56,252 bases of DNA from Aureimonas altamirensis (lineage in GTDB: Bacteria; Pseudomonadota; Alphaproteobacteria; Rhizobiales; Rhizobiaceae), in assembly GCF_023702225.1 (NCBI RefSeq), contig NZ_JAMQCO010000004.1, positions 1 through 56,252 of the forward strand, in the 5' to 3' direction. Every line of letters starts with the position of its first letter. Within the stretch, counting starts at the first letter, position 1. Shown piece after piece: positions 21,297 through 47,574 of the stretch. The position numbers were made by a program, and so were the translations under genes. The notes beneath the pieces were generated by a model. That model saw only the letters and a program-made list of their open reading frames with translations, did no database searches and was not told the DNA's origin.

Positions 21297-24200
21297 TCAG
21301 CTCAGTTCGACATCCAGCACCCCGGGCGCGGCCTTGATCGCGCCGGCCATCTGCGGCGACACGCGGAACCGGCCCGGCAGGAGCAGTTCGACCTCCCGCT
21401 CGCCATTGTCCTGCACCAGCACCAGCGAAACCTCGCTGTCGCCGCCGGCGGCCAGATGGCTGCGGAAGGTGGCCAGGGGGCGCGCATCGCGCATGAAGAT
21501 CTTCATGGCCTTCTGCATGCGGGCTGCCTGCGCCTCCAGGCTTTCCACGCCCTGCGCCCGCAGCGATATGCCCTCGGGCCGCTCCTCCGCCGATACGGAG
21601 ACGATAACCGAGGCGCCCGCCTCCAGCATGTCGCGGAAATTCACCAGCATCTCGGTAAACAGGACGATCTCGAACTGGCCGGTGGGATCCGACAATTGCA
21701 CGATGCCGATCTTGCCGCCGGTCCGCGTCTTGCGCTCCTGCCGGCTGGTAACGGTTCCGGCCACGCGGCCCGCCGTCGCTCCCTTGCGCACCGATGCCGA
21801 CAATTCGGCGTAGGATTGCACGTTCAACCGCTTCAGCGCGGCCTTGTACTCGTCCAGCGGGTGCGCCGACAGATAGAAGCCGATGGACTGGAACTCGCGC
21901 AGCAGGCGTTCGGCCGTCGTCCACAGGGGCGCATCCTTCAGGGCCAGCGGCTCCGGCTCGCCGCCGCCGCCGAACATGTCGTGCTGGCCGCTCAGCCGCC
22001 CGTCATTGACCATGATCGCATAGGCCGACAGGCGCTCGATATTGCCGCACAGCCGGGCGCGGTCGTGGCCGAAGCAATCCAGCGCACCGGCGGTGATGAG
22101 GCATTCCAGCGTCCGCTTGTTCACGATCTTCGGATCGATCCGGGCGCAGAAATCCTCGAGCGACCGGAACGGCCCGTTGGCGCGCTCCGACACGATATGG
22201 TCCACCGCATGCTCGCCGACGCCCTTGATGGCGGCCAGGGAGTAGAAGATGCACCCCTTCTCCACCTCGAAGGGGCGGAACGACGTCTGCACGGATGGCG
22301 CCACCACCTCGATGCCGAGGCGCTTGGCGTCGTTGCGGAAGTCGTTGAGCTTGTCCGTGTTGTTCATGTCCAGCGTCATCGACGCGGCCAGGAACTCCGT
22401 CGGATAGTTCGCCTTCAGATAGGCCGTATGATAGGCGACAAGGGCATAGGCGGCGGCGTGGCTCTTGTTGAAACCGTAATCGGCGAACTTGGCCAGAAGG
22501 TCGAAGATCGTGTTGGCCTGCCCCTTCGCGATACCGCCCTCGATACAACCCTCGACGAAGCGCTCGCGCTGCTTGTCCATCTCGGCACGAATCTTCTTGC
22601 CCATGGCGCGGCGCAGAAGATCGGCTTCCCCGAGCGTGTAGCCTGCCAGAACCTGGGCGATCTGCATCACCTGTTCCTGGTAGACGATCACGCCCTGCGT
22701 TTCGCGCAGGATCGGCTCGATCTTGGGGTGGATGATCTCCACCTCTTCTTCCTTGTGCTTGCGTGCGTTGTAGACCGGGATGTTCTCCATCGGCCCCGGC
22801 CGGTACAAGGCCACCAGCGCGATGATATCCTCGAAGCAGTCGGGGCGCATGCCGATGAGCGCCTTGCGCATGCCCACCGATTCCACCTGGAACACGCCCA
22901 CCGTCTCGCCACGCGCCAGCATCTCGTAGGATGCGGCGTCGTCGAGCGGGATGGAACCGAGATCGATGTCCACCCCCTGCCGCGCGATTAGTTGAACCGC
23001 CGTCTGCAGGGTAGTCAGCGTCTTCAGGCCCAGGAAGTCGAACTTGACGAGCCCGGCCTGCTCCACCCACTTCATGTTGTACTGGGTCACGGGCATGTCG
23101 GACCGCGGATCCCGGTACATCGGCACGAGCTGCGACAGCGGCCTGTCGCCGATCACGATGCCGGCGGCGTGGGTGGACGCGTGGCGGTAGAGCCCCTCCA
23201 GCTTGAGTGCGATGGCGATCAGCCGGTCGACCACCTCTTCCTTTTCGCGCGCTTCCTGCAGGCGCGGTTCTTCCTCGAGGGCCTGCGCCAGCGTCACCGG
23301 GTTGGCGGGGTTGGCCGGCACGAGCTTGCACAGCTTGTCGACATGGCCGTAGCTCATCTCCAGGACGCGGCCGACATCACGCAGGACGGCGCGCGCCTGC
23401 ATGGAACCGAAGGTGATGATCTGCGCCACCTGGTCGCGCCCGTACTTCGCCTGCACGTAGCGGATAACCTCTTCGCGCCGGTCCTGGCAGAAGTCGATGT
23501 CGAAATCCGGCATCGAGACGCGGTCAGGATTCAGGAAGCGCTCGAACAGCAGCGAGAAGCGCAGGGGATCGAGGTCGGTGATGGTCAGCGAATAGGCGAC
23601 GAGCGAGCCCGCGCCGGAACCGCGCCCCGGCCCCACGGGAATGCCGTTGGCCTTGGCCCACTTGATGAAGTCCGCCACGATCAGGAAGTAACCCGGAAAC
23701 TTCATCCGCTCGATGATCGACAGTTCGAAGGCCAGCCGGTCGCGGTAATCCTGCTCGCTCTGCCCGGCCGCGGGCCCATGCGAGCGCAACCGCCGTTCGA
23801 GCCCCTCTTCCGCCTGGCGCCGCAGCTCGGCAGCCTCGGCGTCGATGGCCGATTCCGCCGGCTCGTCCCCGGTGGTGAAACGCGGCAGGATAGGCTTCCG
23901 CGTCCGGGGACGGAACGAGCAGCGTCGGGCGATCTCGATCGTATTGTCGATCGCTTCCGGCAGGTCGGCGAACAGAGCCGCCATCTGGTCCTGCGACTTC
24001 AGGCAATGATCGGGCGAAAGCCGCCGCCTGTCCTCATGGCTGACGAGGCGGTTGCTGGCGACCGCGATGAGTGCGTCATGTGCGTCGAAGTCTTCGGCAC
24101 AGAAGAAGAACGGTTCGTTGGTGGCGACCAGCGGCAACCCCATCTCGTAGGCAAGATCGAGCATCTGCGGCTCCGTTCGCCGGCCGCGCGTCCCGTGGCG

Positions 24201-24764
24201 CTGAAGCTCCACGTAGAGGCGGTCGCCGAAGGCGGCGCGCAGGACTTCCAGCCGCTGGCGGGCCACCACCATGCGGCCGGCTGCCAGCGCCGTGCCGATC
24301 GGGCCGAGCGGACCGCCCGTCAGGCAGATGATCCCCCCTGCCTTCTCCGAGATCCAGTCGGCCAGCACATGCGGGCGCTGGTCTCCTTCGTGCCGCAGAT
24401 AGGCCATTGAGACGATCTCGACGAGGTTCTCGTAGCCGGAATCGTCCATCGCGATCAGCACCAGCGGTGCGGTCGCGCTTTCCTTGTCGCGGGCGGAATC
24501 CGCCTCCCCGTCCTGAAAATCCACGTCGAGCTGACAGCCGATGATGGGCTGGATACCGGCCTTGGCCGCCTTTTCCGAAAACTCGAGGGCCCCGAACAGA
24601 TTGTTCGTGTCGGCGATCCCGATGGCGGGGGCATTGTCGCCCTTGGCATGCTTGATGATCTGGTCGAGCCGCAATGCGCCTTCGAGCAGTGAATAGGCGC
24701 TGTGCACCCTGAGGTGGATGAACCTGAGCGGTCGTGCGGGGGTGCCCGTCGATTCGGTCATCAT
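21297..24764 (-). CDS. dnaE: DNA polymerase III alpha subunit
   Basis: A 1155-residue replicative polymerase subunit. The N-terminal PHP domain starts FIHLRVHSAYSLLEGAL. The polymerase core has the catalytic aspartates in SMPDFDIDFCQDRREEV and the PVGPGRGSGAGSLVAYSL loop. Downstream are helix-hairpin-helix, OB-fold and C-terminal clamp-binding regions. The length matches DnaE1, not DnaE2/ImuC, and no imuA/imuB genes are adjacent. The start is the ATG at 24764 or the immediately following ATG, behind AGGAGACG. It lies downstream of the small SOS-controlled peptide gene, separated by 139 bp with a GC-rich hairpin. Confidence 0.98.
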   Translation of the reverse strand: MMTESTGTPARPLRFIHLRVHSAYSLLEGALRLDQIIKHAKGDNAPAIGIADTNNLFGALEFSEKAAKAGIQPIIGCQLDVDFQDGEADSARDKESATAPLVLIAMDDSGYENLVEIVSMAYLRHEGDQRPHVLADWISEKAGGIICLTGGPLGPIGTALAAGRMVVARQRLEVLRAAFGDRLYVELQRHGTRGRRTEPQMLDLAYEMGLPLVATNEPFFFCAEDFDAHDALIAVASNRLVSHEDRRRLSPDHCLKSQDQMAALFADLPEAIDNTIEIARRCSFRPRTRKPILPRFTTGDEPAESAIDAEAAELRRQAEEGLERRLRSHGPAAGQSEQDYRDRLAFELSIIERMKFPGYFLIVADFIKWAKANGIPVGPGRGSGAGSLVAYSLTITDLDPLRFSLLFERFLNPDRVSMPDFDIDFCQDRREEVIRYVQAKYGRDQVAQIITFGSMQARAVLRDVGRVLEMSYGHVDKLCKLVPANPANPVTLAQALEEEPRLQEAREKEEVVDRLIAIALKLEGLYRHASTHAAGIVIGDRPLSQLVPMYRDPRSDMPVTQYNMKWVEQAGLVKFDFLGLKTLTTLQTAVQLIARQGVDIDLGSIPLDDAASYEMLARGETVGVFQVESVGMRKALIGMRPDCFEDIIALVALYRPGPMENIPVYNARKHKEEEVEIIHPKIEPILRETQGVIVYQEQVMQIAQVLAGYTLGEADLLRRAMGKKIRAEMDKQRERFVEGCIEGGIAKGQANTIFDLLAKFADYGFNKSHAAAYALVAYHTAYLKANYPTEFLAASMTLDMNNTDKLNDFRNDAKRLGIEVVAPSVQTSFRPFEVEKGCIFYSLAAIKGVGEHAVDHIVSERANGPFRSLEDFCARIDPKIVNKRTLECLITAGALDCFGHDRARLCGNIERLSAYAIMVNDGRLSGQHDMFGGGGEPEPLALKDAPLWTTAERLLREFQSIGFYLSAHPLDEYKAALKRLNVQSYAELSASVRKGATAGRVAGTVTSRQERKTRTGGKIGIVQLSDPTGQFEIVLFTEMLVNFRDMLEAGASVIVSVSAEERPEGISLRAQGVESLEAQAARMQKAMKIFMRDARPLATFRSHLAAGGDSEVSLVLVQDNGEREVELLLPGRFRVSPQMAGAIKAAPGVLDVELS

Positions 24765-24877
24765 CGTCTCCTGCAGGTGGATTCCGGATCGGCGGCGATC
24801 TGCCAGCCGGTGCCGCCAGACACTAGCGCGGGCGGGTCTTCGAGTCTTCCCTCGGCAACCCGGTCGCCGAGGTCATC

Positions 24878-24895
24878 CCCGGCAATCATGCCGGG
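24878..24895 (-). terminator. GC-rich hairpin after the small SOS peptide gene
   Basis: A 7-bp perfect stem, CCCGGCA (24878-24884) with TGCCGGG (24889-24895), and a 4-nt loop. It lies 8 nt downstream of the stop codon of the 27-codon gene on the minus strand. No T tract follows, so it may be a weak terminator or an RNA-stabilising hairpin ahead of dnaE rather than a classical terminator. Confidence 0.4.
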
Positions 24896-24903
24896 AGCGA
24901 TCG

Positions 24904-24987
24904 TCACAGGGCATGGATGACGAGCGAGAACCCAAGCACGAAACCCGAGATGGCGGTAAGCGAGAGAAGTTCACGAACGATGGTCAT
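24904..24987 (-). CDS. 27-aa hydrophobic membrane peptide, SOS-controlled, SidA-like candidate
   Basis: A 28-codon frame (27 aa plus TGA) that begins MTIVRELLSLTAISG and ends SLVIHAL. A charged N-terminus (R5, E6) is followed by about 20 uninterrupted apolar residues, enough for one inner-membrane helix. An AAAGGA Shine-Dalgarno lies 7 nt before the ATG, and a perfect GTTC-N7-GTTC LexA box lies 21 nt before it. No sequence identity is claimed. In size, single-helix topology and SOS control it resembles Caulobacter SidA (29 aa), which is LexA-controlled and blocks division through FtsW/FtsN. It sits upstream of dnaE and downstream of lolD on the same strand. It is below the length cutoff of most gene finders. 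Confidence 0.75.
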   Translation of the reverse strand: MTIVRELLSLTAISGFVLGFSLVIHAL

Positions 24988-25008
24988 GTCATGATCCTTT
25001 CCGTTTTC

Positions 25009-25023
25009 GTTCGCTATTTGTTC
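25009..25023 (-). promoter_or_regulatory. LexA (SOS) box and overlapping promoter of the 27-aa peptide gene
   Basis: The plus strand reads GTTC GCTATTT GTTC at 25009-25023, that is GAAC-N7-GAAC on the transcribed strand. This is a perfect match to the direct-repeat LexA operator known for alphaproteobacteria. A TTGACG hexamer at 25045-25040 on the minus strand can act as the -35, and the operator covers the expected -10/start region, the usual place for repression. The first codon of the small peptide gene is 21 nt downstream. Confidence 0.85.
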
Positions 25024-25075
25024 TCTTTTTGATCCTACCCGTCAAGCCCAAAGCGGAGCGGAGCGCGCGTTAAGG

Positions 25076-25780
25076 TTAAGAGGTCTCGGCCCCGAGGCCG
25101 TCGAAGGGTACGATGCGCCCGTCGGCCAGGGTCACGACGCGGTCCATGCGCCGGGCCAGTTCGTGATTATGCGTTGCGATCAGCGCGGCCACGCCGGACT
25201 GTCGCACGAGGGCGGTGAGCGCGTCGAAGACGTAATGCGACGTCACCGGGTCGAGATTGCCGGTGGGCTCGTCCGCCAGAAGGACGTAGGGGTTGTTGGC
25301 AACGGCCCGGGCGATGGCGACGCGTTGCTGCTCGCCGCCGGACAGTTCCGCGGGGCGATGCTCGGCGCGCTTGCCGATACGCAGGTAGCCGAGTAGCTGT
25401 TCGGCGCGTTCCGCGGCCTTGCGACGTGGCAGGCCGGCGATCATCTGCGGCAGCATGACGTTTTCCAGCGCCGAGAACTCGGGCAGCAGATGGTGGAACT
25501 GGTAGACGAATCCGATGGCGTTGCGCCGTGCGCTCGTCCGTTCGGCATCCGACAGCGCGCAGCAGGCCTGTCCGCCGATATAGACCTCTCCGCCGTCGGG
25601 CCGCTCCAGCAGCCCGGCGATGTGCAGAAGCGTCGACTTGCCTGCGCCGGACGGCGCGACCAGCGCGACCATCTCGCCCGGCACCATCGCGAAATCGGCC
25701 TTGTCAAGGATGACGAGTTCGTTCTCGCCCTGCGTGTATCGGCGCTCGACTGCGTCGAGCCTCAACATCGTATCGGTCAT
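25076..25780 (-). CDS. lolD: Lipoprotein-releasing system ATP-binding protein
   Basis: A 234-residue ABC ATPase that powers release of outer-membrane lipoproteins from the inner membrane together with LolC. The Walker A ([15 protein letters not shown]), Q-loop region ([18 protein letters not shown]), signature ([15 protein letters not shown]), Walker B ([13 protein letters not shown]) and H-loop histidine (ATHNHELA) are all present. The start ATG at 25780 overlaps the lolC stop by 4 nt. The C-terminus is GLGAETS and the stop TAA lies 31 bp from the -35 of the downstream SOS promoter. Confidence 0.96.
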
Positions 25781-46651: not shown

Positions 46652-47209
46652 TCAACGCTCGATCGTGCCGGTACGGCGGATTTTCTTCTGCAGCAGCAGC
46701 ACCCCGTACAGCAGGGCCTCGGCCGTCGGCGGGCAACCGGGAACGTAGATATCCACGGGCACCACGCGGTCGCAGCCACGGACCACCGAATAGGAATAGT
46801 GGTAGTAGCCGCCGCCGTTGGCGCAGGACCCCATGGAGATCACGTAGCGCGGCTCGGGCATCTGGTCGTAGACCTTGCGCAGCGCCGGGGCCATCTTGTT
46901 GGTCAGCGTGCCTGCCACGATCATCACGTCCGACTGGCGGGGACTGGCGCGCGGCGCGAAGCCGAACCGCTCGGCGTCATAGCGCGGCATCGACATCTGC
47001 ATCATCTCGACGGCGCAGCAGGCAAGGCCGAACGTCATCCACATGAGGGATCCGGTTCGCGCCCACTGGATGAGGTCTTCCGTCGAGGTGACGAGGAAAC
47101 CCTTGTCCGCAAGCTCGTTGTTGACGTCCGTCACGAAAGGGTCGGACGCCGGGGCGACGGTCAGGTTGGACCGATCGAGAACGCCGGAGGAACTGTCGTT
47201 CAATCCCAT
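46652..47209 (-). CDS. nuoB: NADH-quinone oxidoreductase subunit B
   Basis: A 185-residue subunit that holds cluster N2, the last Fe-S centre before quinone. The tandem cysteines are in [12 protein letters not shown], with the others in [19 protein letters not shown] and [20 protein letters not shown] start at the ATG at 47209, which overlaps the nuoA 3' end by 10 nt and gives [11 protein letters not shown] longer open frame is available but not family-like. Confidence 0.97.
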
Positions 47210-47574
47210 TCGAGGGCGCCTTTCTTCCATTCATAGACAAAACCGACCGTCAGCACGCCGAGGAACACCATCATGGACCAGAAGCCGGCCCAGCCGAGAT
47301 CTCCGAACGTGGCCGCCCAGGGAAACAGGAAGGCGACTTCCAGGTCGAAGATGATGAACAGGATCGACACCAGATAGAAGCGGACGTCGAACTTCATGCG
47401 CGAGTCGTCGAAGGCGTTGAAACCGCACTCGTAGGCGGACAGCTTTTCGTCGTCCGGGGCCTTGAAGGCCAGCAGGAACGGCGACACCAGCAAGGCGACG
47501 CCGATCAACAGCGCCACGCCCACGAAGATGACGATCGGCAGATAAGAGGCGAGAAGTTCGTTCAACGGGATCAA
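47200..47574 (-). CDS. nuoA: NADH-quinone oxidoreductase subunit A
   Basis: A 124-residue three-helix subunit and the first gene of the nuo operon. The conserved loop [24 protein letters not shown] with its cysteine and [24 protein letters not shown] second helix are clear. The 275 bp upstream, to tRNA-Asp, contains no convincing gene and presumably holds the main nuo promoter, for which I could not identify a strong consensus. Confidence 0.97.

Follow-up and report, generated by a model that had tools for sequence, protein, structure and literature searches.

A frame of 27 aa lies on the minus strand of the window, by which is meant the whole 56,252-nt stretch of Aureimonas altamirensis DNA that was analysed. 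It is read from an ATG at 24987-24985 to a TGA at 24906-24904, and is flanked by lolC and lolD on its upstream side and by dnaE on its downstream side; we take the neighbours to be these genes from recognition of their sequences. The features of the locus are listed below in the order in which they are met along the minus strand.

25076..25780, minus: lolD, lipoprotein-export ATPase, upstream neighbour (recognition of sequence)
25040..25045, minus: probable -35 element TTGACG, whose first base lies 11 nt ahead of the half-site series (sequence)
25020..25034, minus: GATCN7GAAC, an imperfect pair of half-sites in the 11-bp series that overlaps the perfect box
25009..25023, minus: perfect LexA box GAACN7GAAC, GAACAAATAGCGAAC (motif scan; 57 of the 64 loci picked on peptide score have a strict box)
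24998..25012, minus: GAACN7GAAA, an imperfect pair of half-sites in the 11-bp series that overlaps the perfect box
24995..25002, minus: ribosome binding site GGAAAGGA, ending 7 nt 5' of the ATG (sequence)
24904..24987, minus: sidA-like ORF, 27 aa, MTIVRELLSLTAISGFVLGFSLVIHAL (conservation, synonymous bias, SidA homology)
24877..24896, minus: 8-bp G+C-rich hairpin after the stop codon, with no T run (fold)
21297..24764, minus: dnaE, DNA polymerase III alpha subunit, downstream neighbour (recognition, and its relatives)

The original prediction of a 27-aa peptide gene with a good ribosome binding site upstream of dnaE was borne out by the frame at 24904-24987 and its GGAAAGGA site. The peptide had no match in Pfam and contains a single hydrophobic stretch (best 19-residue Kyte-Doolittle mean, 1.93); with its one predicted helix, it agrees with the SidA type, which is about 29 aa long and has one hydrophobic helix. 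The fold of 24830-24906 gave a z-score of -2.93 and was equalled in stability by 3 of 200 shuffles. The hairpin at 24877-24896 is a possible transcript end, and a scan between the frame and dnaE found no T-tailed terminator. By eye, the two nearest relatives, L086 and L087, have inverted repeats resembling the hairpin. In L086 the 3' end of the frame, together with the hairpin, is also repeated in tandem as several partial copies between the intact frame and dnaE.

The perfect LexA box that had been proposed ahead of the frame is present (GAACAAATAGCGAAC, 25009-25023, minus strand) and provides a predicted LexA site in the promoter, one of the features used to judge membership of the SidA group. 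It belongs to a series of half-sites (GATC/GAAC/GAAC/GAAA) spaced 11 bp apart downstream of TTGACG. A generic promoter scan detected no promoter at the window locus. Among the boxed related loci, 35 of 57 have a TTGAC starting 7-11 nt ahead of the first strict half-site, a spacing that fits a promoter occluded by LexA. The perfect box is not significant by itself, since GAACN7GAAC occurs twice in the window against 1.18 expected and as many were present in 29 of 100 shuffles; its conservation across the genus lifts it above chance. The other perfect GAACN7GAAC, at 47179-47193, falls inside a 192-aa ORF (46652-47230), presumably NuoB as recognized by eye, and looks like a chance occurrence.

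Conservation of the frame and its separability from dnaE

A dnaE search gave 21 genomes of the genus, including the window's own. The peptide is present in all 21 and lies within 700 nt upstream of dnaE in 20 of them; the remaining genome (L086) has an intact copy at -987 from dnaE, behind several partial 3' repeats. A strict box occurs within 700 nt of dnaE in 19 of the 21, the exceptions being L086 and L088. Five of eight close pairs were given a synonymous-bias test. The window differs from its closest relative by 9 substitutions, 8 synonymous and 1 non-synonymous (P 0.0003), and from the next by 23 changes, 6.5 of them non-synonymous (P 4e-5), and three further pairs within the genus gave P values of 0.006 to 0.019. 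Two pairs, for which there are counts only, have no synonymous excess: L097-L102 (2 synonymous, 2 non-synonymous) and L091-L094 (4.5 synonymous, 5.5 non-synonymous). The pooled pN/pS over 190 pairs is 0.47, a value saturated at synonymous sites, and the close pairs were therefore used instead. Identity to the nearest relative is 89.3% in the frame, 79.6% in the stretch from the frame to dnaE and 84.3% in the 88 nt ahead of the frame. The sidA-like frame is a real gene under purifying selection. The possibility had been raised with the original prediction that relatives keeping the box would fail to conserve the frame; the outcome was the opposite, with the frame in 21 of 21 genomes and mostly synonymous change. 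That the box regulates dnaE alone and the frame is an accident is extremely improbable: about one such box per window is indeed expected by chance, but this reading is already contradicted by conservation of the frame, and the conserved amino acids, the boxed copies away from dnaE and the homology to SidA also count against it.

A search of 297 genomes of the order with the single window peptide returned three matches at E<=0.5, including the window's own genome, and was too insensitive, so a dnaE search and then a profile were used. Reading of 80 named dnaE loci revealed such a peptide at 27, of which 22 have a strict box and 5 do not (two Neorhizobium, one Devosia and two Caulobacter). The boxed loci include Aureimonas, Ahrensia, Bradyrhizobium, Ancylobacter, Devosia, Roseibium, Aquisalinus, Maricaulis, Hellea and Phenylobacterium; no peptide was accepted at Rhodobacter-type dnaE loci. 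Three of the 80 (L023, L046 and L082) have less than 220 nt of upstream sequence, and absence there means little. Two others (L068 and L081) have a strict box and no flagged peptide, and a GTG frame flagged by the filter at L058 was judged unrelated. The profile, A1, was built from 50 peptides, leaving out the L017 peptide and duplicates and choosing an inner ATG as the start for L084, L088, L116 and L057. This search, suggested with the original prediction, matched 177 of 199 sampled family genomes (~10 expected by chance) and 137 of 297 order genomes (~15 expected by chance) at E<=0.05. The class-wide matches at E<=1 (142 of 385) were set aside as mostly chance; seven of the 29 new loci of that search were examined (L133-L138 and L143).

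These seven, together with all 57 new best-scoring loci of the order and family searches, make up the 64 loci chosen by peptide score. A strict box was found no more than 200 nt upstream at 57 of them and was missing at 7; arithmetic from the window count puts the chance rate at ~0.002 per 200 nt. Members of the training alignment had been found partly by their boxes, and loci with a peptide outside it are thus the fairer test: the box is present at 36 of 43 such loci, or for 31 of 37 distinct peptides. Two perfect boxes 18-20 bp apart precede the peptide at L090, L096-L103, L105, L111-L114 and L118, and paired perfect boxes also occur in Bradyrhizobium (L013, L014, L066 and L084) and at L298-L302.

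The frame could instead be a leader (uORF) whose translation tunes dnaE, with a peptide that has no role in trans. sORF25 of Sinorhizobium meliloti is a novel sORF in the dnaE1 5'-UTR that is discussed together with possible uORF roles (PMC10117765), and the lack of a detected T-tailed terminator from the frame to dnaE is also in keeping with a leader. A cis-leader should always be linked to the gene it regulates. The window peptide lies upstream of dnaE, as in the wider SidA superfamily, and among the matches listed there are 118 family genomes with both positions: in 77 the distance between peptide and dnaE is at most 2.5 kb (median, 197 nt from dnaE to the match), and the other 41 lack such proximity. 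Draft contig breaks may explain some of the 41; in eight of them the peptide is on the same contig and strand as dnaE and at least 20 kb away. Nine cellular loci with no dnaE nearby, seven from the 41 (L199, L201, L202, L204, L206, L212 and L213) plus L189 and L242, were inspected. dnaE was found in none of the nine stretches, some of which bear a box, and lolD lies upstream in eight; L189 has a LolC-like frame (by eye). Among 29 loci of the order search, dnaE is present at 27 and lolD within ~1.5 kb at only 10. Persistence of the gene beside lolD without dnaE means that it is more than a leader of dnaE, and because the peptide can be separated from either neighbour with its box retained, it behaves as its own unit. 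Rfam gave no leader matches, and relatives with no box stand beside phage genes (see below). Taken with these observations, a leader function for the frame is very unlikely.

Relationship to SidA

The NCBI SidA model NF033228 (equivalog cut-off, 35 bits) matched the dnaE-upstream peptides of Caulobacter and Phenylobacterium loci strongly (2.8e-15 and 6.3e-16). It did not match the window peptide, which falls outside the model, and it found nothing at E<=0.1 in the window's own genome. Only 2 of 50 relatives were matched, with a best E of 0.0062 that is below the cut-off; an unrelated light-harvesting family was matched by 5 of the 50 (best E 0.01), so single-sequence matches of this strength have no discriminating power. 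Of 250 genomes of the class, 15 matched NF033228 at E<=0.1 and none exceeded the cut-off. Three of the four control rings lay in unrelated bacteria, which identifies these weak matches as noise. Of the class-wide loci L219, L221 and L225, the first and last were rejected and L221 was judged real: it (MARWVREMLSLASCGGFVWMAWQAALLAY) has two perfect boxes, dnaE downstream and an intermediate sequence.

In the order around genome G568, which we take to be Caulobacterales, NF033228 matched 22 of 120 genomes at E<=0.01. A single family holds 21 of these, and 14 exceed the cut-off, as does the control genome, Caulobacter vibrioides. dnaE lies directly downstream at 21 of the 23 NF033228 loci of this order, and 17 of the 23 have a strict box. 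In that order, sidA is therefore the dnaE-side peptide, and the adjacency of sidA and dnaE in Caulobacter, raised in the original prediction, was correct. The two loci away from dnaE are L303, where the match is partial (8 of 29 positions), and L304 (L304/L305; G894:C3:315102), a second SidA-like copy in its genome that has no LexA box and lies ~2 kb from an HTH gene.

Comparison of profiles was more sensitive. Alignment of A1 with three SidA sequences by hhalign gave a probability of 86.6% and a score of 23.4, which none of 1000 shuffles reached (best, 18.4). With 23 SidA sequences, 8 of which score under the NF033228 cut-off and were included on the strength of a neighboring dnaE and a weak model match, the probability rose to 94.3% (E 1e-7) and the score to 29.0, which none of 400 column shuffles reached (best, 12.7). 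The alignment spans 21-22 columns, and for a hydrophobic helix this short, proof from sequence has its limits. Against the same 23 sequences, the window peptide beat 500 of 500 of its own shuffles. When A1 was used to search 907 ORFs from nine loci, ranks one to five were all dnaE-upstream peptides and included all three SidA of Caulobacter and Phenylobacterium; ranks six and seven were other ORFs, and further dnaE-upstream peptides came eighth and ninth (E 0.59 and 2.5). Conservation across orders is seen in the N-terminal core, which the window group has in common with SidA; the helix is strongly diverged in its second half, and the FVWM[MV]C block of SidA is absent from the window peptide.

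At the level of profiles, the window peptide has the sequence homology expected of the wider SidA superfamily. Judged from sequence, it is a homologue of SidA and most likely its orthologue; the failure to match NF033228 and the lack of the FVWM block place it outside that model. The original prediction had drawn a functional parallel to SidA and claimed no sequence homology. The parallel gained support from the profile homology, the LexA box and the dnaE neighborhood, but the caution about homology did not stand, since profiles detect it.

Phage and prophage relatives

Eight regions with a second profile match were fetched, six of which have no box; the two with a box (L239 and L242) are lolD-side copies. 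Among the box-less regions, L235 and L236 lie beside genes for exonuclease VIII, RecT and HNH proteins (L236 by eye), and L238 lies beside ssb and an exonuclease gene. In L237 (9422-9496, minus strand), the SidA-like peptide forms the start of a 44-aa frame near a gene for a repressor with HTH and S24-peptidase parts, likely a lysogeny switch. The surroundings of L240 (DNA methyltransferase) and L241 (phage-type ATPase) are less clearly phage. The L235 contig is itself present in a viral collection.

A scan of 7057 ORFs from 37 viral loci, four of which came from a pattern written from one SidA-like peptide, yielded nine ORFs with E<1e-4, which are spread over seven viral contigs (L243, L244, L245, L246, L247, L276 and L279; the L276 and L279 copies are identical). 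None of the nine has a strict box within 150 nt. A SidA-like peptide occurs in 5 of 17 RecT-linked viral loci versus none of the 16 found by an exonuclease-type protein. The typical phage or prophage peptide reads MRDLL.DIASFVAVS.F and is box-less, and its known surroundings are phage recombination genes (recE/recT, ssb and exonuclease). Codon differences among the viral copies have no clear synonymous excess, and selection on them is accordingly not demonstrated. PHROGs contained no family for the two viral peptides tested. Plasmid and phage sequence searches with queries of 28-32 aa returned nothing, possibly because such queries fall below the sensitivity of tblastn.

Collectively, a SidA-type emergency brake appears to be common to many alphaproteobacteria and to have been taken up by some of their viruses. 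We give an even chance to a more specific account, in which sidA is an ancient SOS checkpoint gene found across much of the Alphaproteobacteria instead of being peculiar to Caulobacter, and temperate Hyphomicrobiales phages captured it without its box into their recombination regions (e.g., upstream of recE/recT), so that a phage blocks host division on its own timing through FtsW rather than FtsZ.

Proposed role and comparison with known systems

The gene probably encodes a single-helix, division-blocking peptide of the inner membrane under LexA repression, as a homologue and most likely orthologue of Caulobacter sidA. DNA damage would lead to cleavage of LexA and opening of the promoter, whose -35 to -10 region would be covered by the LexA half-sites. 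Inserted in the membrane with a short charged N terminus ([VA][RK][DE]) and a helix that bears the family core (L-[AS]-[LF]...F), the peptide would hold FtsW/FtsI/FtsN at the septum in an inactive state and delay division for repair. We infer four of these steps: binding of LexA in vivo, insertion into the membrane, FtsW as the target, and the block to division. The host genome has lexA, with GAACACAACTGGAAC (GAACN7GAAC) upstream of it by eye, and one FtsW/RodA-family match.

TisB is an SOS-induced single-helix peptide that acts on the membrane. A peptide of SidA lineage could likewise have stayed SOS-induced and changed its target or role, toward depolarization of the TisB/DinQ kind or another envelope enzyme. 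The strongly diverged second half of the helix would accommodate such a change, and DinQ is described as another SOS-induced single-helix peptide acting on the membrane. This reading is nevertheless unlikely given the N-terminal core that is shared with SidA and conserved across orders, and the same gene neighborhood; 24700-25140 also has no RNA-family match, and hence no known antitoxin RNA.

To our knowledge, how Rhizobiales and most other alphaproteobacteria halt division after DNA damage is an open question. A conserved, nameable gene in most sampled family genomes makes it directly testable, and would allow a gene too short to be called to be annotated in many genomes; the phage-borne relatives are possible natural inhibitors of septal wall synthesis. 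Among the matches listed from openly licensed literature (on SidA homologues, Rhizobiales LexA regulons, small proteomes and phage division inhibitors, as far as the texts were available), there was no report of SidA outside Caulobacter, which is weak evidence of absence; the available portions of PMC9578287, PMC13384398, PMC11031950 and PMC2245857 mention none.

SidA of Caulobacter crescentus (NF033228) has 29 aa, resides in the inner membrane and interacts with both FtsW and FtsN; mutations in ftsW or ftsI suppress it (PMC4211646). Deletion of lexA in Caulobacter causes filamentation because of sidA (PMC12700426). The window peptide resembles it in size (27 versus 29 aa), a single predicted helix, a LexA-type box, a position directly upstream of dnaE and a homologous N-terminal core. 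It differs in scoring below the NF033228 cut-off and lacking the FVWM[MV]C block, and in belonging to a group in which the gene may keep lolD as its neighbor where dnaE is absent; its target and phenotype are presumed from SidA. In function, SulA, YneA, SosA and other SOS division inhibitors do the same job of making division wait during DNA repair. SulA acts on FtsZ. YneA acts on FtsW in Bacillus (PMC13396833). DidA of Caulobacter, set beside the window peptide by description only, is also a small division inhibitor, and some of the ftsW and ftsI mutations that suppress SidA suppress its effects too; unlike SidA, it is SOS-independent, is activated by DriD and binds FtsN (PMC4211646). S. meliloti sORF25, compared by position, occupies the same slot as the window frame and may be its orthologue, in which case that dnaE1-adjacent sORF could be read as an SOS gene instead of a uORF.
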